Shown in pieces: positions 3,314 through 23,274 of a DNA stretch of 27,023 bases. Every line of letters begins with the position of its first letter. Positions within the stretch are counted from its first letter, which is position 1. The translations under genes were made by a program, and so were the position numbers. Origin of the DNA: a virus; IMG/VR virus record IMGVR_UViG_3300007735_000556, positions 1 to 27,023 of that record. One strand, given 5' to 3'. The notes under the pieces are model-generated. The model saw only the letters and a list, made by a program, of their open reading frames with translations. It made no database searches and was not told the origin of the DNA.

Positions 3314-3347
3314 TAAAAAAAAAGGGGAGAGTTCACCACCCTCCCCC
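3314..3347 (-). terminator. Rho-independent terminator after the tube-like gene
   Basis: On the minus strand GGGGAG (3346-3341) pairs with CTCCCC (3329-3324) around an 11-nt loop, and nine T residues follow at once (3323-3315). It lies 26 nt beyond the stop of the gene at 3373-3948. This is a textbook intrinsic terminator pointing in the direction of transcription. It would lower expression of the following genes relative to capsid and tube-like genes. Confidence 0.85.
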
Positions 3348-5979: not shown

Positions 5980-6585
5980 TTATATAAATATCAATGGGTT
6001 TTGTTTACGTTCAGCCCACCATGCTTTCTTTGCAGCGCTGATATTTGCGCAATGTTCTGCGGTGCGTGGTGGTTTAGGTTTACGCATGTTAGCTTTTCCT
6101 TCTTCACTTTTAGGTTTACGCAATTTTGCTTTTGTTTCTTCGCTTAATGTTCTACCTGTTGCTGCAGCTCTTAGTTTTTCTATTGTTTTTTCGCTTGCCT
6201 TTTTACCTTTTCGTGTATCACTCATTTTTGCTTTTGTTTCTTCGCTCTTTGGTTTACCAAGCGATGCAGCACTTTGTTTTGCTTTTGTTTCTGTAGTATG
6301 TTTAAGACCTGATATTCCTTCACCACCATCTGTCATATTCACCAACCCACCTTTACCTAAGTCCTTGCGACCATATAAACCTATCAGGTATTGCTCTACT
6401 TTACAGGCTTCCTCCCAGCTTATACCTTCATATATAATATCAACAGAGTATCCTGCTTTATTTACTAATTTATGCCAATGGTCATTTCTTGCATACTTAC
6501 TATATGCACGCTTGGTTGTCTTGCCTATACCCACATAAAAGGGTGAGCCTGTGTCGTTGCGTAAATGTCTATATACTGTTGCCAT
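5980..6585 (-). CDS. GIY-YIG homing endonuclease with NUMOD3-like repeats (copy A), 201 aa
   Basis: Residues 3-27 hold the GIY-YIG core in variant form (VYRHLRND, then FYVGIGKTTKRAY), with the downstream EQYLIGLYGR and LVNMTDGGEG motifs. From residue 95 on there are NUMOD3-type DNA-binding repeats around SEETKAKMSDTRKGKK and SEETKAKLRKP. This is a free-standing homing endonuclease that cuts target DNA to spread its own gene. It sits between the protease gene and the next head gene in the same direction and interrupts neither. It is a clear paralogue of the gene at 20330-20959. The stop codon lies inside a promoter-like element. Its function in the phage life cycle is probably selfish. Confidence 0.9.
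   Translation of the reverse strand: MATVYRHLRNDTGSPFYVGIGKTTKRAYSKYARNDHWHKLVNKAGYSVDIIYEGISWEEACKVEQYLIGLYGRKDLGKGGLVNMTDGGEGISGLKHTTETKAKQSAASLGKPKSEETKAKMSDTRKGKKASEKTIEKLRAAATGRTLSEETKAKLRKPKSEEGKANMRKPKPPRTAEHCANISAAKKAWWAERKQNPLIFI
5981..5994 (-). promoter_or_regulatory. TATTTATA promoter-like element, 4 nt before an ATG
   Basis: On the minus strand it reads TTGATATTTATATA. It contains the TAA stop codon of the upstream homing endonuclease gene, and the ATG of the next gene follows 4 nt after TATTTATA. If TATTTATA acts as a -10 box, the message would be leaderless or nearly so. Confidence 0.45.
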
Positions 6586-6617: not shown

Positions 6618-8021
6618 CTATTTAGTTCCCAAATTAGCAAAAAACTTTTCTGTGAACCATCCCTCTACACTAAACCCCTTGATTTCACCACTTTTAACTT
6701 TATCCCATACATCAGGATTATCTATTTTGTATGCAGTCATCCATGTACCTTTTGGATATTTCTTGCCATACAGGTTGCTTTTATCGTTATTATTGTTCTC
6801 TATAAGCCAGGTTTCAGTAAGATAAACATTGTCTAATGCTATACCATCATGCTCTATATTCATGGAATGGATTGTCCCACTTTTAATAAACTTTTCCGAA
6901 AGCTCTTTTATAGTTTCTTCGCTGAAATAAACCCAGTATTCTTCTTCATTATCCTCATCCCATCTTCTAATAAGACGATTGGGAATCATTACCGGTCCAA
7001 CTAATTTACGCTGAGCATTTTCATAATCCGGCAAAGAACCTACTTCAAGTCCTAATTGCTCTGCAAATATATGCGTAAATACCATATTCTCTATATCATT
7101 AAATGAGTATTCTTTATCTACTTCAGCTCCTCTGCTTGTTGAAGCATCACCTTTAGCAGTATCTTCACCTTTTGGAGTTGGATTTGGAGTATCACTTTTA
7201 GGTGCTTTAGGAGATTCTTTTACACCACCACGTGGGCCTATTTCAGCAAATTGTTGTCCTATTTGTCCTAATTCAGCAACTACTTTGGGGTTATTATCGT
7301 AATGTTTTTCAATTCCAAGTTGTTTAATAGTATTTACTTTTTCTAAATTACTACTAACAGCATAAACATTAGCTGGATTTACACCATAGGGTCTAACTAA
7401 TTCTAATATAGCAGATTTATTATCTCTAGCTGAAATAACATATACTTCATATCCTTTAGCTATTAATTCTTGTAATAATATTCTACCATCAGCAGTAGTT
7501 AATACACCATCAAAGTCAAGTGATACTTTAGAAAATGTTTGTTTGGATTCAGCAAATGAATCTAATATTAAAAATTCTTCATTAAATATATTTCCTGCTT
7601 GTCTTAACTTCTTTTCAGCCCATGGTAAAGCAGTTGGTCCTCCCCAAAGCAAATAACTTATATATCCACACGCAGTATAATCTTTCCTACTTTGTGCTAA
7701 TTCATAACTATCTTTATGTCTGATAAGGAATGAACGCATTCTTCGGATAGTGTCCAATGATAACTTTTCACCTCTTACTATTTGTTGAGCACGAACTTTT
7801 CCAACTTGAGTTGCGCATTGATTATCTATTCCTTCGTTTCTTTTAATTCCCATCGCAGCAGCATCTTTTACTGATTGAGGGTAATCATTATAGGTTTCAA
7901 ATAGGTATTTTTGTGCATTAAATGCGTAGAAATCTTCTTCAATCGCAGGTTCTTGCACCAAAGCAACAGCATCTATTTCAGCTGGTAATAAATCATTAGG
8001 TTTTAATTCTACTACTTTCAT
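6618..8021 (-). CDS. XkdF-like capsid maturation protease with an internal HAD-like domain, 467 aa
   Basis: Three parts are visible. Residues 1-145 hold an N-terminal module (AVALVQEPAIEEDFYAFN, then a region ending YLLWGGPTALPWAEKKLRQA). Residues 165-245 look like a HAD-fold phosphatase: SLDFDGVL with D169 and D171, YEVYVISAR, and KHYDNNP. A linker (GPRGG...KAPKSDTPNP) leads to residues 340-460, an XkdF-type prohead protease with IHSMNIEHDG (H385, H391) and GFSVEGWF (S451). The protease would trim scaffold and capsid proteins. XkdF proteins usually lack the HAD part. The gene lies upstream of scaffold and capsid genes. An AAAGAA run precedes the ATG, and a TATTTATA element lies 15 nt upstream. 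Confidence 0.8.
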   Translation of the reverse strand: MKVVELKPNDLLPAEIDAVALVQEPAIEEDFYAFNAQKYLFETYNDYPQSVKDAAAMGIKRNEGIDNQCATQVGKVRAQQIVRGEKLSLDTIRRMRSFLIRHKDSYELAQSRKDYTACGYISYLLWGGPTALPWAEKKLRQAGNIFNEEFLILDSFAESKQTFSKVSLDFDGVLTTADGRILLQELIAKGYEVYVISARDNKSAILELVRPYGVNPANVYAVSSNLEKVNTIKQLGIEKHYDNNPKVVAELGQIGQQFAEIGPRGGVKESPKAPKSDTPNPTPKGEDTAKGDASTSRGAEVDKEYSFNDIENMVFTHIFAEQLGLEVGSLPDYENAQRKLVGPVMIPNRLIRRWDEDNEEEYWVYFSEETIKELSEKFIKSGTIHSMNIEHDGIALDNVYLTETWLIENNNNDKSNLYGKKYPKGTWMTAYKIDNPDVWDKVKSGEIKGFSVEGWFTEKFFANLGTK

Positions 8022-8047: not shown

Positions 8048-10243
8048 TTACAATCTTCGTCTATTCTGCAATTGTTGTTCAGCTTCCAACCCATTACTTA
8101 TATCTGATGATACAACATAAGCACGGATAGGTTGTGTGTTCATTGGTTGAGGTGGAGCATTCATTGGAGAACCACTACTACCAAAAGGTTGATTGCCGGG
8201 ATCGTTTGGATTAGGTATAGGTTGATTAAATCCTCCACCCAGTAATGCTGTAGCAGTTCCACCTGTTGCACCACCAGCCGTACCTCCACCACCGGCTGCA
8301 CCAGCACCACCACCTCTACTTGGGGGAGTTGGAGTAGAACCTGTATATTGTTGTTTTTTGATACTTGAAACTGTATTTGCCATTTGGGCTAAAATCATAG
8401 CCGATAAAACACCACCAACAATCGGACCTAAAATAGGACCTAACGACATCGCACCTCCGAATGCTTGGAATGCTGCAGATAAACCTGATGTGATAGTATC
8501 AGCAATTTTTAATTTTTTGTTATCATCATAGGCTCGTTTTCTTTCTGCCTCCATTTTAACATTTTTCTCATACTCCAATTGTTCGGTTTGAGCAGCTATT
8601 TCTTCTTCAGTTCCAACAACATTTTGTAATTTTTTATTATATTCAACTTCAATAGCGTTTAATCTATCTTCACTATTTTGTTCTGCCATAGATAACATTC
8701 CACTGGTGACAGAATTTAAAGCAGATAATACACCACCAACTTGTTGACCTATTTCATCACCAAAGAATTTAGCTAATTCAGTTGTTTTTTCAATAGTAGA
8801 AGCAGTATTTTTTGCTATTTCATTATTAATTTCAGTTACATCTTGACCATAATCCTGATATAATTTTTTTAAAGCAAGTAATTTTTCTAATTCTAACTTT
8901 TTTGCTTTTTTATCGTACTCTTCTTTTTTTAAGTTTTGTTGCAATAATAAAGTATCCTGTTCAGTATAATATCTTTCAATAAATGTTTTATTATCATCAA
9001 ACTCTTTTTTCTTTCTATCAGTAAAATCTTTTGAAGCGTCTTGTTCACGTTGTATTCTATCCGCTTCTCTTTGTTTATCTATTAAATCATATTTTAAACC
9101 TATTAGTATTTTTTGTTTTTCGTATATCTCTAATTGATTTTGAGCTTCTTGAGAACCTTTGTCAAATGTTTCTGTAATTGTTTCCCAATAATTCGTTTCT
9201 AACTCAGCTAATTCTGAAGTTCTAGTACGGGTATCATCTACTATTTCATTTGTACTAGCCTTATATACATAACCTAACTCTGCAGCTAATTGTCCGATTT
9301 CATTGTTTATATCTTCAATTTGCTTTTTTTGAAGTTCGCGTCTTTTTTGTATTTCTTTTTCAAAGTCAGTTAATTCTTTTTTAGGAGCTTTTGGTGGTTT
9401 ATATTCTTTGATTTGAACATTTAAACTTTTAAGTGCATTTTCATATTTAATAACTTGATTTCGTGCATCATCATATGCTTTACTAACTTCTTTTAAATCT
9501 TCTTGTCTTTGTTTTTCTGCTGCAGCATCTTTTTGCTTTATAGTTAATGCTATCATTCTATTTGATAAATCATCTCGTACAGCTGCGGTTTGTTTAATTA
9601 ATTCTGCAGTTTGTTCTTTTTGTAATTTAAGAATTTGTAAATCACTCGCACCTTTTAATTTAGCATCTAATACCAAACCCTCATTTATTAATGCTTGATA
9701 ATTTAAATAAGCGTTGGTATCATCTAGTTCATCATTTAATTTTTTCTGTGCTACAGCAACATCTTCTGTTGTCGCTGCATATGCAACTAATGAAGCTATG
9801 ACAGCTGTTAAAGCAACTGCTATTGCTCCAATAGGATTTCTAGCTATAGCTGCTGTAAGTGCTGTCCAAGCTGCTCTAACTCTTCCTAAAATACCAACTG
9901 ATGTTGTTTGAGCTGCGTTATTTGCAGTAGTAGCTACTGTATTTGCGGTAGTTACTGTAGTAGCAATTTGTTGTGCTTTACTAAATAATTGTGATGCTTC
10001 CCTTAATTCTTTATATCCTTCAAATACCCTTTTAGCACCATCTGCAAATGCAATCGCTGATGTGGCTGCTTCTTGGAATTGTTTTTGGACTTTATCATCA
10101 ATACCAATTAATCCCATTGAACCTACAAGCAGTTCTACTGAGCCACCTAATATATTGATAGCACCACCAATAGCTTTAATTTTGGCTTCTACGGCATCTA
10201 AATTACCTGCCTGAAAATTAATATTTACGGTTTCATTTACCAT
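8048..10243 (-). CDS. Tail tape measure protein, 731 aa
   Basis: This protein sets tail length and is ejected ahead of the DNA. It shows the usual layout: a helical N-terminus (LDAVEAKIKAIGGAINILGG), a hydrophobic stretch near residues 135-160 (NPIGAIAVALTAVIASLVAY), a long charged coiled-coil core (about residues 170-560), a second hydrophobic segment with LGPILGPIVGGVLSAMILAQ, and a Gly/Pro-rich tail. It ends IRAYVVSSDIS...RRRL, a C-terminal pattern common in Bacteroidota phage tape measures. At about 1.5 A per residue it would measure a tail of roughly 110 nm. AAAGG precedes the ATG. It follows the large tail-tip gene rather than preceding it. Confidence 0.85.
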   Translation of the reverse strand: MVNETVNINFQAGNLDAVEAKIKAIGGAINILGGSVELLVGSMGLIGIDDKVQKQFQEAATSAIAFADGAKRVFEGYKELREASQLFSKAQQIATTVTTANTVATTANNAAQTTSVGILGRVRAAWTALTAAIARNPIGAIAVALTAVIASLVAYAATTEDVAVAQKKLNDELDDTNAYLNYQALINEGLVLDAKLKGASDLQILKLQKEQTAELIKQTAAVRDDLSNRMIALTIKQKDAAAEKQRQEDLKEVSKAYDDARNQVIKYENALKSLNVQIKEYKPPKAPKKELTDFEKEIQKRRELQKKQIEDINNEIGQLAAELGYVYKASTNEIVDDTRTRTSELAELETNYWETITETFDKGSQEAQNQLEIYEKQKILIGLKYDLIDKQREADRIQREQDASKDFTDRKKKEFDDNKTFIERYYTEQDTLLLQQNLKKEEYDKKAKKLELEKLLALKKLYQDYGQDVTEINNEIAKNTASTIEKTTELAKFFGDEIGQQVGGVLSALNSVTSGMLSMAEQNSEDRLNAIEVEYNKKLQNVVGTEEEIAAQTEQLEYEKNVKMEAERKRAYDDNKKLKIADTITSGLSAAFQAFGGAMSLGPILGPIVGGVLSAMILAQMANTVSSIKKQQYTGSTPTPPSRGGGAGAAGGGGTAGGATGGTATALLGGGFNQPIPNPNDPGNQPFGSSGSPMNAPPQPMNTQPIRAYVVSSDISNGLEAEQQLQNRRRL

Positions 10244-16446: not shown

Positions 16447-16962
16447 TTATTTCTTCTTTCCTACTACTATTATTCCAGGTGCAGCAGCTTCTAATTGTTT
16501 TTTTATTTCTTTTACCATATCCACCGCACCTGCATTTGCTATATTTTGTATATTTTGATTTACCGCTAATTTTAATGATGATTGTATAAATGGTTTTGCT
16601 TTTTTGAATCTTTGTCCCTTTGCACCTATAGCTCGGGCTATCAACCAAGCAAACTGAATTTGTTTCATTCCACTTGGAACTCGAATACGCTTAAACTTTA
16701 TCCATTCCAATATATCCTGCACTGGTGGTTGTTTACCAGGTCCACGCTCTGCACCATTATCTACATAGATACCATATTTAAGCATTTCAACTGATATACT
16801 TACATCTTTACTACTTTTCGTTGGTGTTAATAATTTGATAGACTTTGCTAATCGGCCTGTATTATACGAACCATTCTTTTTTAACTCAGCAATAGCATAA
16901 GTAGTATAATCATCAGCGAGTTGCTGTAAAGCCGGTGTAAGTTTTTCCCAATCAATTAGCAT
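16447..16962 (-). CDS. HK97 gp10-like head-tail completion (neck) protein, 171 aa
   Basis: The N-terminal helix (LTPALQQLADDYTTYAIAEL), TGRLAKSIKLL, then MLKYGIYVDNGAERGPGKQP and FAWLIARAIGAKGQR match the HK97 gp10 family of small tail-completion proteins. In that family the 'YG.YVD.G...' strand and the following helix are the most recognisable parts. The length is normal. The protein would sit at the head-tail joint or tail top. It follows the tail-terminator-like gene by 21 nt, with AAAAGG upstream of ATG. The end is very basic (GKKK), and its stop is coupled to the next ATG (TAATATG). Confidence 0.75.
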   Translation of the reverse strand: MLIDWEKLTPALQQLADDYTTYAIAELKKNGSYNTGRLAKSIKLLTPTKSSKDVSISVEMLKYGIYVDNGAERGPGKQPPVQDILEWIKFKRIRVPSGMKQIQFAWLIARAIGAKGQRFKKAKPFIQSSLKLAVNQNIQNIANAGAVDMVKEIKKQLEAAAPGIIVVGKKK

Positions 16963-16983: not shown

Positions 16984-17442
16984 TTATACTTGAGGATAAG
17001 CACAGTAATCTAATACACCACTATCAGTATAATTAACCATACCAACCCATCCGAATGCTCTATCATTGAATGCTTCACTCACTGGGGTTATATTAGCTAA
17101 TGTTACCCATTCTCTTTGTTGTTCACTTCCCAAGTTCATATACCCAATAATATCGTATATATACTGCTCAGTATTTGACATGATTGATAAATAATTTGTT
17201 TCATCCAATGGTGGGACATCTAATGCATATAATTCAAAAGTTAGGGTACGAGTACCTGATGTACCAATTTGATTGATGTTCATACCAGGGGATGTAATCG
17301 GTCTCAAAAATATATAAGGATAGGTTACATTTTGTGATGCAGCATCCAATTCTTCTAAATCACCAGTTGCAAAAGTATTAATTCCCGCATGATTAATGGA
17401 AGCTGATTGAAATCGTGCTACTACCTGTGCGTAAGTATTCAT
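16984..17442 (-). CDS. Putative tail terminator protein, 152 aa
   Basis: The protein has the layout of a tail terminator: an N-terminal helix (MNTYAQVVARFQSASINHAG), a Pro/Tyr strand (TYPYIFLRPITSPGM), TRTLTFELYALDVPP, a helix (NYLSIMSNTEQYIYDIIGYM) and a closing beta strand (FGWVGMVNYTDSG). Proteins of this size and place cap the tail tube during assembly. It lies directly before the gp10-like gene. The ATG is just 2 nt after the stop of the gene before it. Its only ribosome binding site is the GAA repeat that ends that gene. Confidence 0.6.
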   Translation of the reverse strand: MNTYAQVVARFQSASINHAGINTFATGDLEELDAASQNVTYPYIFLRPITSPGMNINQIGTSGTRTLTFELYALDVPPLDETNYLSIMSNTEQYIYDIIGYMNLGSEQQREWVTLANITPVSEAFNDRAFGWVGMVNYTDSGVLDYCAYPQV

Positions 17443-17444
17443 AG

Positions 17445-17711
17445 TTATTCTTCTTCTTCTTCTTCACTTAAAAATTCTTCTAAGTCTGATAATGAAGCAG
17501 TTTCAAATTCTTCTGCTCCACTAATTAAAACTTCAGGAGCTGGATTTGGGGTTGTATCTTCACCAACACCATTGGCTTGAACATCATAAACCAAATCAAT
17601 GGAGCAACCAACTATTGCAGCTATTTTATTAACATCATAGCCTGAACCTAACCAATTTTTAACAATGGTTCGGAGTGTGTAATCTACGGGTGGACAATTT
17701 TTGCAACTCAT
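17445..17711 (-). CDS. Small acidic protein with N-terminal CxxC, 88 aa
   Basis: I do not recognise this protein. It starts MSCKNCPPVDYTLRTIVKNW (C3 and C6), has a helix-turn-helix-like stretch (YDVNKIAAIVGCSIDLVYDV), a Pro-rich linker and a very acidic C-terminus that ends in six Glu codons. It lies between the frameshifted gene and the tail terminator-like gene, so a role in tail assembly is possible. The start has AAGGAAT 9-10 nt upstream. The run of six GAA codons at the end also serves as the purine-rich ribosome binding site of the next gene. Confidence 0.6.
   Translation of the reverse strand: MSCKNCPPVDYTLRTIVKNWLGSGYDVNKIAAIVGCSIDLVYDVQANGVGEDTTPNPAPEVLISGAEEFETASLSDLEEFLSEEEEEE
17448..17465 (-). 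repeat. Six-unit GAA trinucleotide repeat at a gene end
   Basis: Six consecutive GAA codons (poly-Glu) close the upstream gene and lie 5 nt before the ATG of the next one, once the TAA stop and CT are counted. This 18-bp microsatellite is the only Shine-Dalgarno-like sequence there. Confidence 0.8.
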
Positions 17712-17726
17712 ATTCTTTTATTCCTT

Positions 17727-18032
17727 TTATTTTATTCTTTGTTTATTCATTATATTTTTTTCTCTTTGTGCTTTTCTATAATTCAAGTCTTTCTCATGCG
17801 CTAGATAATTCATTACAAATATATAATTTAAATCTGTGATACACTTATCCCCTGTGATGTTAAGGATGGGAGTTTCCGCCAAATGACAAATTGTTGCAAA
17901 CCATCCCCAATGTTTATAGTATTCTTGGGTATCAACTTCTTCATTTGATTTGACCAATTCATCTTCAATTTCTCTTTCTGGTTCATTTGAGAATAAAGCA
18001 GTGAACTTTGATTTACTAAGCTTATTTGAAGC
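17727..18032 (-). CDS. -1 frame extension of the chaperone-like gene (fusion product of 283 aa)
   Basis: If the ribosome slips back one base in the T9 run at 18041-18033, translation joins this frame. It then reads ASNKLSKSKFTALFSNEPER, a charged linker, and a well-composed domain with Trp, Cys and aromatic residues (EYYKHWGWFATICHLAETP, NYIFVMNYLAHEKD), ending at TAA 17729-17727. The total is 283 residues from ATG 18577. The frame has no good start of its own: the best candidate is a TTG at 17957 without a ribosome binding site, in the middle of the domain. The stop is 15 nt before the next gene, so this end, not the zero-frame stop, fits the operon spacing. A one-base sequencing error in the run would give the same picture as a plain single gene. 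Confidence 0.65.
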   Translation of the reverse strand, partial: ASNKLSKSKFTALFSNEPEREIEDELVKSNEEVDTQEYYKHWGWFATICHLAETPILNITGDKCITDLNYIFVMNYLAHEKDLNYRKAQREKNIMNKQRIK

Positions 18033-18577
18033 AAAAAAAAAGATAATGCTCCTAACGCAAATGCGACTGGAAAATGGGCCATTCGTTCCGCTACCACAAC
18101 TGAATTAGAATAGTTGTATGGTTCTACTTCATAATAATCCCAAATATTTACCATCTTACCATTGTTAGAAAATGTATTGTATGTATTGATGACTTTGAAT
18201 TTGAGTGAATTAAACTTATGCTTTGTAATAGGGCGATATAGTATAGCCATAATCTGCGCTAAGTTTTCTTTGGGATACTTAGTCAGCTTTTCCAAATCAA
18301 CATACTCACCTAAGCTCATTTGTGTAATATCAACAAACCCATGCAATACACCATCAATTTCTATGATTGGATAAAATGCTGGAGCGGATGTCTTTTCAAA
18401 TACATCTACTAATTCACCATATTCTTTCATCAGAGTATTTTTGTTCAAATCCCTAACTTCGTCTGGTGTTATGTTTTTGTAATAAGACATGAACAGTTCA
18501 CATCGTTCCATTTCGGTTATCTCTTCACCAAAGCCGTTCCAAACAGTCCAATCTTTTATGCCGAAATATTCTTTCAT
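17828..18577 (-). CDS. Possible tail assembly chaperone, zero-frame product, 249 aa
   Basis: Residues 1-178 look like a conserved soluble protein: FYPIIEIDGVLHGFVDITQM, SLGEYVDLEKL, LAQIMAILYRPITKHKF, YEVEPYNYSNSV and MAHFPVAFALGALSFF. After residue 181 the zero frame continues for another 68 codons of low-complexity Ser/Gln/Lys sequence (LLQISLVNQSSLLYSQ), which looks non-native. The alternative -1 frame looks like real protein (next entry). A gene after the terminase with a -1 slip in the tail cluster recalls the gpG/gpGT tail assembly chaperones of lambda-like phages. The family itself is not one I can name. A TATTTATA element and AAAGGAG lie before ATG 18577. Confidence 0.6.
   Translation of the reverse strand: MKEYFGIKDWTVWNGFGEEITEMERCELFMSYYKNITPDEVRDLNKNTLMKEYGELVDVFEKTSAPAFYPIIEIDGVLHGFVDITQMSLGEYVDLEKLTKYPKENLAQIMAILYRPITKHKFNSLKFKVINTYNTFSNNGKMVNIWDYYEVEPYNYSNSVVVAERMAHFPVAFALGALSFFLLQISLVNQSSLLYSQMNQKEKLKMNWSNQMKKLIPKNTINIGDGLQQFVIWRKLPSLTSQGISVSQI
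18032..18053 (-). promoter_or_regulatory. Programmed -1 frameshift signal: AGGAG, 10 nt, U UUU UUG
   Basis: On the minus strand AGGAG (18053-18049) is followed by CATTATC and nine T residues, then G. The zero frame reads TCT TTT TTT TTG, so the slippery heptamer is T TTT TTG (18038-18032). The AGGAG ends exactly 10 nt before the heptamer, the spacing known for the stimulatory internal Shine-Dalgarno of E. coli dnaX. A weak GCTT/AAGC hairpin follows directly. Confidence 0.65.
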
Positions 18578-18637: not shown

Positions 18638-18672
18638 TATAAAAGGGGAGCCCCACTCTACAGGCTCCCCTT
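18638..18672 (-). terminator. Rho-independent terminator after the packaging genes
   Basis: A perfect 10-bp stem (18672-18663 with 18652-18643, GGGGAGCC core) encloses a 10-nt loop and is followed on the minus strand by TTTTATATGC. It lies 100 nt after the terminase stop and 60 nt before the next gene, so it separates the packaging genes from the tail genes. Confidence 0.8.
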
Positions 18673-18767
18673 CCTTACCATAAAACTTTCAATGAAAAAA
18701 ATGGAGAATCGGGTCTTAAATTTAGTTTTATGTGCCGTACATCAATTACGTCTATAATAAATATCAT
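18640..18767 (-). ncRNA. Candidate small transcript between a promoter-like element and a terminator
   Basis: A TATTTATT element (18763-18756), placed directly after the terminase stop, points to the terminator 80-90 nt away. No standard gene lies between them. A 30-codon open frame (18767-18675, begins MIFIIDVIDV, ends SLKVLW) fits exactly into the gap and stops 3 nt before the stem, but its ATG is inside the promoter-like element and it has no Shine-Dalgarno site. The element therefore could make a short RNA, encode a tiny protein, or simply be a terminase 3' UTR. Confidence 0.3.
18754..18767 (-). promoter_or_regulatory. TATTTATT promoter-like element directly after the terminase gene
   Basis: On the minus strand it reads ATGATATTTATTAT and starts 5 nt past the terminase stop codon. 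It shares AAATGATATTTAT with the elements before the portal and scaffold-like genes. It points to a terminator about 90 nt on. Confidence 0.4.
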
Positions 18768-18772
18768 TTTGA

Positions 18773-20017
18773 TTATCTTAAATAGCGTGGGTTTTGACCG
18801 ATATACAAGCTTTTGCCTGAATCACCAAATAGTTCATTTCGTGCCAAATTGGCCATCCAAATAGCATCCACTATATCATCATGCCCGGATGGTGGGTGTG
18901 AGAACGATATATTCCCAGTTGCATTTATTTTGTAAGTATATGCTGATAATTCATTATAACACTCCGGCATTAATTTTTTGCTGGGTAGGAGTATATCACC
19001 ATTTTCAATTGAAGATATAAGCTTTCTTACACCCAATGTTTTAGACTCATTAGTAGTAACGAATGGCTTACACCTTATACCACCTTTTTTAATTAATTCA
19101 AACATTCCTTGTCCAATCCCGTTCGTTTCAACATAACATCCCCTAATATTATATCGTTTGAGATGAGTAATGAAAGTTGCAGCAACCTCATGTAAAGATT
19201 CTCCTTTAATTCTAATAATTCTCGCTGCTGTTCCTCCTTCGTCAAATATTGCACAAACGGAGTAATCGCTAGCGACAGCGCTATCAATTCCAATAAAATA
19301 ATTTCTGCCTGGTTCGGGTTCATTCCATTCCTCTAATATTGTGATTAAATCTAAATTTCTAAATACATCATTCGTACTTTCTGAAAATTGTGCAAGGTAT
19401 TCTTGCTTAAATATCTCTTCGGGCAGGGATTGTCTTTGTTCCTCAATAAAACCCTCGTCAGCGTACGGATTATCAGCAGATATACCCTCATATGATATAT
19501 GGGTAGATGATTGCTCCTGGCCCCTCAGGAACCATTGATAGAACCAATTCTTTGAGCGGGGTGTTGATATTACCAAACACTTTCTACCTTTTGCTGTAAG
19601 AGTAGGGATAATCGCTTCGTTGATAGCTTTCTCAGCAATGAATGCCGCTTCATCAATTATCAACCATTCAAACGAATAACCCCTAATACTATCATAACTA
19701 TCAGCTGATAAGAATCGGATTTGTGAGCCATTAATAAAGGTTATTGTAAGTTGTGCTTTGTTTAATGCTTTTATTATATCTTTACAAGCACCGCTCATTT
19801 CCTCAAAAACCTTTTCTGATTGTCGGTATACTGGTGCTACCCACCCACACTTTGTTTTTTGGAATTTCAAAAGCCAATATAATGCTAGGTTTTGTGCCAA
19901 AAGGGATTTTCCGAATTGTCTTCCGGTTGATACGATACCAAATTTATGTTCACTGTCTGCGAACCCATCAATAATTTTTTTTTGCCCAACATGGGGATTA
20001 AATAGTTTTATTACCAC
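18773..20017 (-). CDS. terL: Terminase large subunit, 414 aa
   Basis: This is the packaging motor. The ATPase part has Walker A STGRQFGKS (residues 30-38, K37), Walker B FEWLIIDEAAF (D122, E123) and a coupling motif LVISTPRS near residue 151. The nuclease part has FIGIDSAVASDYS (D245), CYVETNG (E297) and GHDDIVDA (around D380-D384), the three acidic sites of the RNase H-like fold. At 414 residues it is compact but complete. Its ATG overlaps the end of the preceding gene by 7 nt, which indicates coupled translation. The start MVIKLFNPHVGQKKIIDGFA agrees with the N-terminus of this family. The next gene is separated by a strong terminator. Confidence 0.95.
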   Translation of the reverse strand: MVIKLFNPHVGQKKIIDGFADSEHKFGIVSTGRQFGKSLLAQNLALYWLLKFQKTKCGWVAPVYRQSEKVFEEMSGACKDIIKALNKAQLTITFINGSQIRFLSADSYDSIRGYSFEWLIIDEAAFIAEKAINEAIIPTLTAKGRKCLVISTPRSKNWFYQWFLRGQEQSSTHISYEGISADNPYADEGFIEEQRQSLPEEIFKQEYLAQFSESTNDVFRNLDLITILEEWNEPEPGRNYFIGIDSAVASDYSVCAIFDEGGTAARIIRIKGESLHEVAATFITHLKRYNIRGCYVETNGIGQGMFELIKKGGIRCKPFVTTNESKTLGVRKLISSIENGDILLPSKKLMPECYNELSAYTYKINATGNISFSHPPSGHDDIVDAIWMANLARNELFGDSGKSLYIGQNPRYLR

Positions 20018-20337
20018 TTAACCGTATAATTCATTGGATTGGATAGAGTAGGTTTTTCTTCCTCACCCTTAAATTCAATAGCTTGTAATGTTCCCCTCTC
20101 TTCCAACACCAGGATTCCGTCGCAATCAGTTGCGCAACCTTGCTTACGAAAAGCGAACTGCAGTTCTTCCGGGTTTCTTCCATTCTCTGCACAAAAACTT
20201 AACCATTCAGTATGCTCGGGGGTCATCAACTCGGCTATACTCCCACATTTGTCGCAGGTGAATTGGACCTTTTCAAAAAAGTCGTCAGTAATTTTTACTG
20301 CTGATTCTAAAGGTTTATTTAATTTTTGATTATTCAT
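20011..20337 (-). CDS. Small Cys-rich (possible zinc-binding) protein in the terminase cluster, 108 aa
   Basis: I do not recognise the family. There are five Cys: C28 and C31 in FTCDKCGS, C49, and C68 and C72 in GCATDCDG. The CxxC and CxxxC pairs could bind a zinc ion. The C-terminal part is beta-rich and acidic (EERGTLQAIEFKGEEEKP). The gene overlaps the homing endonuclease gene by 8 nt and the large terminase by 7 nt. It was therefore probably part of the original small terminase - this gene - large terminase operon before the endonuclease gene arrived. A packaging-related role is possible but is inferred only from position. Confidence 0.6.
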   Translation of the reverse strand: MNNQKLNKPLESAVKITDDFFEKVQFTCDKCGSIAELMTPEHTEWLSFCAENGRNPEELQFAFRKQGCATDCDGILVLEERGTLQAIEFKGEEEKPTLSNPMNYTVKW

Positions 20338-20959
20338 TTTCCATCCTTTTTTTAGCGTAATATGCTTTTAATGCAGCGCTTAGTTTTGCTTTCGTTTCTT
20401 CACTTCGTTTATAACTATCGTTTGCTCTTCGTGTAGCCACAGTTTTTGCTATATGTTCTTCACTTTGTTTATAACTATCGTTTGCTCTTCGTGTAGCCAC
20501 AGTTTTTGCTATATGTTCTTCGGTAAATTTGTATGTATAACCATTTGCTTTTTTAGTAGCTACACTTTTTGCTACATGCTCTTTGCTTTTGGGTTTACGC
20601 ATGTTAGCTTTTGTTTCTTCACTTTTGGGTTTACCTATCATTATATCTCTTAATTTTGCTATATGTTCTTCGGTATGCTTATAACCTAACACACCATCTC
20701 CACCGTTGGTAAGGTTCGCAAGCGTTCCTAACCCTAAATCAGCTCTACCATATAGCTGGATAAACTCTCGTTCCTTTTGCTGCGCTTCTTCCCATGTCAA
20801 GTCATCAAGCATAATCTGAACTTTATATCCATGCTTATTTACTATACTATGCCAATGCTTATTTCGCTGATGTTTAGCATAAGCACGTTTTTCAGTCTTA
20901 CCTATACCAATATAAAAGGGTTGGTTAGTATCTAATCGTATGTGTCTATAAACTATCAT
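20330..20959 (-). CDS. GIY-YIG homing endonuclease with NUMOD3-like repeats (copy B), 209 aa
   Basis: Residues 2-27 carry the GIY-YIG core (VYRHIRLD, FYIGIGKTEKRAY), followed by EREFIQLYGRADLG and LANLTNGGDG. The rest is a run of NUMOD3-like DNA-binding repeats with SEETKANMRKP, TEEHIAKTVATRRAN and SEETKAKLS. It is the closest relative of the gene at 5980-6585 in this window, sharing long identical stretches. It overlaps the end of the small terminase gene by 14 nt and the next gene by 8 nt. It has thus settled between packaging genes without breaking them. A 60-bp stretch inside it is duplicated in tandem. Homing endonucleases of this type spread by cutting alleles that lack them. Confidence 0.9.
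   Translation of the reverse strand: MIVYRHIRLDTNQPFYIGIGKTEKRAYAKHQRNKHWHSIVNKHGYKVQIMLDDLTWEEAQQKEREFIQLYGRADLGLGTLANLTNGGDGVLGYKHTEEHIAKLRDIMIGKPKSEETKANMRKPKSKEHVAKSVATKKANGYTYKFTEEHIAKTVATRRANDSYKQSEEHIAKTVATRRANDSYKRSEETKAKLSAALKAYYAKKRMENE
20401..20520 (-). repeat. 60-bp tandem duplication inside the homing endonuclease gene
   Basis: Bases 20401-20460 and 20461-20520 are identical except for one position (C at 20406, T at 20466). The duplication is in frame (60 nt is 20 codons) and adds one extra 20-residue DNA-binding unit of the SEEHIAKTVATRRAN type. Such near-identity means the duplication is recent or is kept alike by recombination. Confidence 0.95.
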
Positions 20960-22149: not shown

Positions 22150-23274
22150 CTAATTTAATAATTTGTTTAATTCCCTCAAGCTATCCATTTCACTTTCCAT
22201 TAATTGATCGCAACGGTGTAAAGATTGATGTTCTAATTCGGTTCTCCATTTATCATCATCCAATAACCTATCCATTAATTCAAATAACTCCTTTTTAGTT
22301 TTGAAGAATAACCCATTAGGGAATATCTCTCTATAATATGGAGTATCTTGGAATAGGGGCACAGTTCCTACCATCATACTATCCGTAGCAGCGATTGACC
22401 ATCCATGATGAGTTTGTTTAGGTGTAATCTGTATTTTGCATTTAGCCAATCTTTGTAAATACTCCCATTTCGGAAACTTACTTTTAACCATCCAATCATA
22501 TTCTGATGGTGGAGATAATTGAGTAACCCATACTTTCCAATCTTTACGATGCTCTCTATATTCTTCCATCCATTTAACAAATTCAGGATATCCTTTATAT
22601 CCTGCGCATCTATGATTAAACACTATAATATTTTCTTTGTTTATTTCCGGTTCTAATTCTCTTCCTTTTACACCTAATCTCCATACCTTTAATATACTCT
22701 TTAATTTTTCCATTTTTTGGGTTGATAACCATTCTTCCGCATATTTAAGAACTACATCTAACTGAGCTTGAGTATTTACAAAACAGGTATCCATTTGAAG
22801 AACGCCTAATAATTCATTTGGAAACCACATATCTTTAGGTTTACCAGGCCTGTTATCAGGTCCATTCGCACCCTTCATTTCCCACCAATGACAATAACCA
22901 ATGATTTTAGTATCTATAGTTTTTTTATATCTCCCAACTTGCGGCCAGTCTGGTAAATGTGAGTAGATAATATCATAATCAATATCCCTTAGCTTTTTAA
23001 TAAGTTCTGATGAAGGGAATGCTCTTTGATTCATCATATCACCTAATATATCAATAGGGTGTTGGGTTACATTATGGTATTCAGCTAATCGTTTGCTAAT
23101 ATTATTATGAGGCATAAGCACATTAAAGTAATACTTACCAATCTTATTTAAGCCTTTTATGTGGTTATATAATACATCTATAAACGAGTCCTTATCTATA
23201 TTAGAATAGTTAGTTATATTAGGTATTACCAATACTTTTCTTTTATCTGAATTATCATCCCAAAAACTATTCAT
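22150..23274 (-). CDS. Glycosyltransferase (GT-B fold), 374 aa
   Basis: The protein looks like a GT4-type glycosyltransferase. The N-terminal half begins with a beta strand (KRKVLVIPNITNYSN) and has helix-strand units (YDIIYSHLPDWPQVGRYKK, KIIGYCHWWEM). The C-terminal half has IIVFNHRCAGYKGYPEFV, WKVWVTQLSPP and the donor-binding region HHGWSIAATDSMMVGTVP (residues 289-306) followed by LFQDTPYYREIFPNG. It would transfer a sugar from a nucleotide-sugar. In phages such enzymes modify phage DNA bases, virion proteins or host surface sugars, and the target cannot be told from the sequence. AAAGGAG precedes ATG 23274, and a promoter-like element with both boxes is just upstream. Confidence 0.85.
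   Translation of the reverse strand: MNSFWDDNSDKRKVLVIPNITNYSNIDKDSFIDVLYNHIKGLNKIGKYYFNVLMPHNNISKRLAEYHNVTQHPIDILGDMMNQRAFPSSELIKKLRDIDYDIIYSHLPDWPQVGRYKKTIDTKIIGYCHWWEMKGANGPDNRPGKPKDMWFPNELLGVLQMDTCFVNTQAQLDVVLKYAEEWLSTQKMEKLKSILKVWRLGVKGRELEPEINKENIIVFNHRCAGYKGYPEFVKWMEEYREHRKDWKVWVTQLSPPSEYDWMVKSKFPKWEYLQRLAKCKIQITPKQTHHGWSIAATDSMMVGTVPLFQDTPYYREIFPNGLFFKTKKELFELMDRLLDDDKWRTELEHQSLHRCDQLMESEMDSLRELNKLLN

Follow-up and report, generated by a model that had tools for sequence, protein, structure and literature searches.

An uncharacterised phage gene on the minus strand of the window (the whole stretch of DNA analysed here, 27,023 nucleotides of IMG/VR virus record IMGVR_UViG_3300007735_000556) carries a run of nine T residues, T9, at which its coding sequence passes from the zero frame into the -1 frame. 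Comparison of related loci shows the frame change, its site and the selection acting on the -1 frame, and on these comparative grounds the frame change is judged to be real, widespread and conserved, that is, a deliberate switch, which is unrecognised in the records examined here. The whole scheme, a conserved programmed frame change at T9 by which two products would arise from one start, is given a probability of roughly 60%. The elements of the locus are as follows.

17828–18577, minus strand: zero-frame ORF of 249 amino acids, the short product (ATG at 18577, stop at 17828)
18035–18577, minus strand: N domain, from the ATG to SFF, present in both products, supported by an AlphaFold2 model and by relatives
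18033–18041, minus strand: T9 slip site, TCT TTT TTT TTG, crossed by the zero frame from 18041 to 18033
17727–18035, minus strand: -1-frame extension with a conserved (F/Y)xKxWGW domain, giving a long fusion of about 283 amino acids
18049–18053, minus strand: AGGAG, a proposed Shine-Dalgarno-like (SD-like) stimulator whose functional role is not supported

All coordinates of the first-pass annotation, which had proposed a programmed -1 frameshift at this place, were correct on recheck. Residues 1–181 of the short product make up the conserved N domain, whereas the final 68 residues form an unconserved tail. The N and C domains were aligned and modelled separately; the N domain, which is 19–61% identical to its relatives, was modelled by AlphaFold2 with a pLDDT of 85.6 and a pTM of 0.79. 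T9 offers two in-phase heptamers, T TTT TTG and T TTT TTT. From T9 onwards the -1 frame has no stop before the TAA at 17729–17727, and the ATG of the next gene (17711) follows 15 nt past this stop, as had been described. Counting the slip site, A/T runs of nine occur four times in the window, so that T9 by itself is weak evidence. Two of the others, at 3315 and 24163, lie outside the frameshift gene, and an A9 on the minus strand at 19975–19983 is located near the start of the terminase large subunit gene, terL, at Q-K-K-I.

It is the conservation over 159 loci, rather than T9 alone, on which the frame change is accepted as real. A search with the N part yielded one distant relative of equal layout, with a long T run followed by the WGW domain in the -1 frame, and the two-sequence alignment of the window and this relative retrieved at least 381 relatives from IMG/VR, of which 80 were kept. 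The fused protein of the distant relative matches, among isolated phages, the Nonlabens phages P12024L and S, where each frame has its own annotation as a hypothetical protein (40 and 41), immediately downstream of terL. Searching again with the subfamily to which the window belongs brought in 77 further loci, with L085 as the top match at 61% identity. The final set comprises the window, the isolate Nonlabens phage P12024L and 157 IMG/VR loci, 68 of the 159 being non-redundant; one entry, L110, is the contig of L005 fetched again.

Wherever both parts are present, the C domain lies in the -1 frame (82/82 loci in the first set and 77/77 in the second), and a T TTT TTT in phase with the zero frame is found at the junction in 159/159 loci. 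T runs of nine or more occur only 12 times elsewhere in the approximately 470 kb of these loci, both strands counted. The programmed -1 frame change and its slip site, for which a comparison with homologues had been proposed, thus held up throughout. The 159 loci were likewise screened for a homologue that reads through in one frame and lacks a slippery run, and none was found. In GTDB genome contigs no relative was detected, and therefore no prophage and no host could be obtained from that source.

The absence of any single-frame homologue among these relatives also excludes a homopolymer error as explanation. Faulty sequencing or assembly, or decay of the gene, with a true run of ten Ts within one intact frame, has a negligible probability: the identical -1 relation recurs in all 159 loci, which stem from many samples, and the isolate P12024L carries two separately annotated ORFs. 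Homopolymer errors do exist, since two plasmid records of one related phage show T8 and T7 together with other indels. These records are a Lysinibacillus "plasmid" of 66 kb (CP045836.1; L162) and the E. fergusonii "plasmid" pEF06 of 67 kb (NZ_CP040811.1; L163 and L166), each with two copies of one and the same relative of this phage family. The phage copies in the two bacteria are 99.6% identical over the 1.1 kb compared, and both "plasmids" have the appearance of contaminant assemblies in concatemeric form, in which the slip site reads T8 and T7 through homopolymer errors.

Beyond the slip site, substitutions in the overlap follow the -1 frame in their codon-position pattern. Over 47 pairs, amino-acid identity in the overlap is highest in the -1 frame (0.64), with values of 0.56 for the zero and 0.48 for the +1 frame, and of 608 differences between close pairs 246 are synonymous in the -1 frame versus 117 in the zero frame. 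By these patterns the -1 frame is the constrained one, and the zero-frame tail is unconstrained. Its length varies from 7 to 108 residues across the relatives, as expected if the tail is not under selection. Both the real protein domain that had been read in the -1 frame, with its conserved (F/Y)xKxWGW motif, and the random appearance noted for the zero-frame tail are thereby borne out. Separate initiation of the C domain is ruled out: a methionine ahead of the WGW motif is present in only 3/66 relatives and missing in 63/66, and the +1 frame in addition stays open for a median of two codons, so that a frame change, and not a start of its own, leads into the C domain. In the relatives the start of the next gene mostly coincides with the -1 stop (median offset -1 nt).

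The surroundings of the gene in the window comprise the following features.

18773–20017, minus strand: terL, the upstream neighbour
18641–18674, minus strand: intrinsic-terminator-like hairpin of 13 pairs followed by a T-rich stretch, from a consensus scan, between terL and the frameshift gene
17445–17711, minus strand: 88-aa ORF, the next gene
16984–17442, minus strand: 152-aa ORF, a possible tail terminator, named by analogy
16447–16962, minus strand: HK97-gp10-like neck or tail-completion protein, a weak assignment (PF04883, E 0.005, below the cut-off; phrog_5, E 0.007)
8048–10243, minus strand: probable tape-measure protein of 731 aa (phrog_3336, E 0.004; short C-terminal similarity to P12024L_50, E 0.04; composition)
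1435–2712: portal

Because a terminator-like hairpin follows terL, the frameshift gene probably opens a new transcription unit. The gene lies directly downstream of terL, and the tape-measure gene is found several genes further on, which agrees with the earlier remark that it sits after the terminase and away from the tape measure. In those relatives with enough flanking DNA, the possible tail terminator follows in 59/61, the gp10-like neck gene comes after it in 38/51 and terL lies upstream in 36/56 cases. Similarity of the portal to that of P12024L and P12024S, together with the frameshift gene itself, suggests a phage of Flavobacteriia. Elsewhere in the window, homing-endonuclease-like genes (phrog_314) are located among the head genes (5980–6585) and just upstream of the terL region (20330–20959). 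A 467-aa gene at 6618–8021 resembles head maturation proteases in its C-terminal part and phrog_2859 in its N-terminal part, possibly representing a fusion, and a glycosyltransferase-like gene is found at 22150–23274 (PF00534, E 9e-6, just below the cut-off).

With respect to the mechanism, the first-pass annotation had favoured a dnaX-like layout in which an upstream SD-like AGGAG stimulates ribosomal frameshifting. In the window this element does sit 10 nt ahead of T TTT TTG (7 nt ahead of T TTT TTT), and a generally weak use of SD sequences in Flavobacteriia is no argument on its own, since F. johnsoniae, which seldom uses SDs, nevertheless retains an SD-dependent frameshift in prfB (PMC8710568). 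The comparison of homologues that had been suggested for AGGAG nevertheless went against this layout. AGGAG or GGAGG is present in only 3/38 representatives of the first set, and GGA is not enriched at the respective glycine (17/40 in the window's clade versus 74/245 elsewhere, p = 0.14), so that AGGAG is no commoner than glycine codon usage predicts. A stimulatory role of the element was consequently rejected, and a dnaX-like mechanism is considered highly improbable. A downstream hairpin or pseudoknot was also discarded: folding of 80 nt gave a mean z of -0.15 over 68 loci with 1/68 below -2, and a z of +0.28 for the window.

The length of the T run bears on whether the polymerase or the ribosome slips. 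Among the 159 loci the run has 9 Ts in 133, 10 in 25 and 7 in one (L033), but never 8; runs of 9 or 10, found in 158/159 loci, occur in all three phases relative to the zero frame. For the 68 representatives, the numbers of Ts before and after the in-phase heptamer are (0,2) in 37, (1,1) in 19, (2,1) in 6, (1,2) in 4 and (2,0) and (0,0) in one each, and the total T count is at least nine throughout except in L033. In shuffling a mean of 15.7 runs fell below nine and the number was never as low as the one observed, a result which overstates independence because the phase of the run changes only about 8 times on the tree, leaving few independent contrasts by which Ts ahead of the heptamer and Ts behind it could be shown to compensate each other. 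A sturdier comparison concerns the phenylalanine codon that follows the slip: the window's clade uses TTT in 37/37 cases, versus 352/487 elsewhere (p = 1.7e-5, presuming lineages near saturation at such sites); a TTC at this position would shorten the run to T8. Taken together, the run length looks to be under selection.

A ribosomal heptamer requires seven Ts only. Bacterial RNA polymerase slips efficiently on nine As or Ts, its RNA:DNA hybrid having 9–10 bp (PMC5009743), and selection against A/T runs appears at length nine in many bacterial genomes (PMC1088944). As the ribosome needs seven Ts, the polymerase slips on nine and the run is held at nine or more, there is a slight lean, at about even odds, towards RNA polymerase slippage on T9, either as the sole mechanism or combined with -1 slippage of the ribosome on T TTT TTT. 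Several observations speak against this lean. In the clade with V/L-F-F-L at the junction, T9 follows from the amino acids and the heptamer alone, and in the window's clade two overlapping ribosomal heptamers could account for it; furthermore, the T7 of L033 suffices for ribosomes and is short for polymerase slippage. L033 (4795–5591) is the sole relative with T7 and also the sole one with an early zero-frame stop, 31 nt past the start of the heptamer, and its lineage perhaps relies on ribosomal slippage.

Purely ribosomal -1 frameshifting, in which tRNA-Phe pairs would slip on T TTT TTT (and in the window also on T TTT TTG), is assigned a little less than an even chance. T TTT TTT is in phase in all loci, L033 has exactly the seven Ts required, P2 E+E' is produced at TTTTTTG without a downstream hairpin (PMC3091744), and the tail-chaperone frameshifts described in the consulted portion of PMC5009743 are ribosomal. 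Seven Ts would do for such a mechanism, yet T8 is absent and the run counts at least nine in every phase with the exception of one locus, while TTT is fixed past the first heptamer in the window's clade. The open-access literature searched yielded no description of a tail assembly gene that uses polymerase slippage. It is proposed only tentatively that RNA polymerase slippage on a length-conserved T9, and not ribosomal frameshifting, yields the long form of the tail chaperone in a widespread phage family, probably one of Flavobacteriia, so that the ratio of the two forms would be set at mRNA synthesis.

In the proposed two-product scheme the majority product would be the 249-aa protein consisting of the 181-residue N domain and a junk tail. 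The minority product of about 283 aa would join the N domain to the C domain of the -1 frame; if it is RNA polymerase that slips on T9, a fraction of the mRNA molecules would have U10. The N domain may then coat the tape-measure protein, with the rare fusion recruiting the tail-tube protein via its C domain. By analogy of architecture only, the gene likely works as a tail assembly chaperone pair of the lambda G/GT or P2 E/E+E' kind, the fusion being the minority product in this gene as well.

As in genes for such chaperones, the two frames overlap, the C part lies in a fixed shifted frame and the slippery site is conserved; the gene is not placed between the major tail and tape-measure genes in the window. 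Matches to Phage_TAC_7 (PF10109) were obtained for 3/66 members (best E 0.002), weak and amid chance-level hits, and matches to phrog_166, annotated as tail protein, for 10/66 members (best E 2e-4), likewise weak. Comparison by hhalign with P2 gpE (probability 1%) and with lambda G was not significant. Searching the PDB for the fold of the N domain returned nothing at an E value of 0.001 or better, the best Z score by VIA-align being 3.0. Against BFVD the N-domain model matched only uncharacterised phage proteins, among them that of P12024S, while entries annotated there as tail assembly chaperones were insignificant (E 0.5 and 2). No significant fold match was found for the weak model of the C domain (pLDDT 70). 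Because it does not lie where chaperone genes usually do, between those for the tube and the tape measure, and because firm homology is lacking, the gene is not assigned to a chaperone family.

The same observations could indicate that the frame change is real and the gene encodes a structural or head-tail joining protein instead, as it adjoins terL upstream of the possible terminator and neck genes, far from the tape-measure gene, and has no firm homology to any known chaperone. This alternative is regarded as rather unlikely: G/GT genes are typified by just this layout in the tail module, a short product plus a fusion, no other candidate adjoins the tape-measure gene, and there are the weak PF10109 and phrog_166 tail matches. 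The gene is thus put forward as a candidate for the tail chaperone that these phages otherwise lack. Two families of "unknown function", phrog_32199 for the N part and phrog_38404 for the C part, are merged into one frameshifted gene, which occurs in hundreds of IMG/VR contigs. If T9 acts at transcription, a widely conserved ratio of short to long chaperone could be set by a different machine.

Among known systems, transcriptional slippage at T9 or A9 in Shigella mxiE and Thermus dnaX is similar in that a length-conserved run of at least nine joins two frames, although these are bacterial genes. E. coli dnaX likewise has an SD-like element about 10 nt upstream of its heptamer, as do the window and a minority of the relatives, whereas here the element is not conserved, a downstream stem-loop is missing and the heptamer is T-based. 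Genes 40 and 41 of the Nonlabens phages P12024L and P12024S (Inhavirus) are true relatives with T9, the -1 relation and a position directly after terL, but they are annotated as two hypothetical proteins and the fusion is not recognised. P2 gpE/gpE+E' resembles the window gene in having a short product and a -1 fusion, and in its shift at T TTT TTG following a hydrophobic ...VGF stretch without downstream structure (PMC3091744); it differs by a T6G instead of T9, by the size of E (91 aa) and by the position of E directly before the tape-measure gene T. In lambda gpG/gpGT an N domain is also made alone or rarely fused to a C domain of the -1 frame, within the tail genes; contrary to the window gene, to which it shows no detectable sequence similarity, G has V (major tail) on one side and H (tape measure) on the other, whereas the window gene follows terL and has a much longer zero-frame tail.
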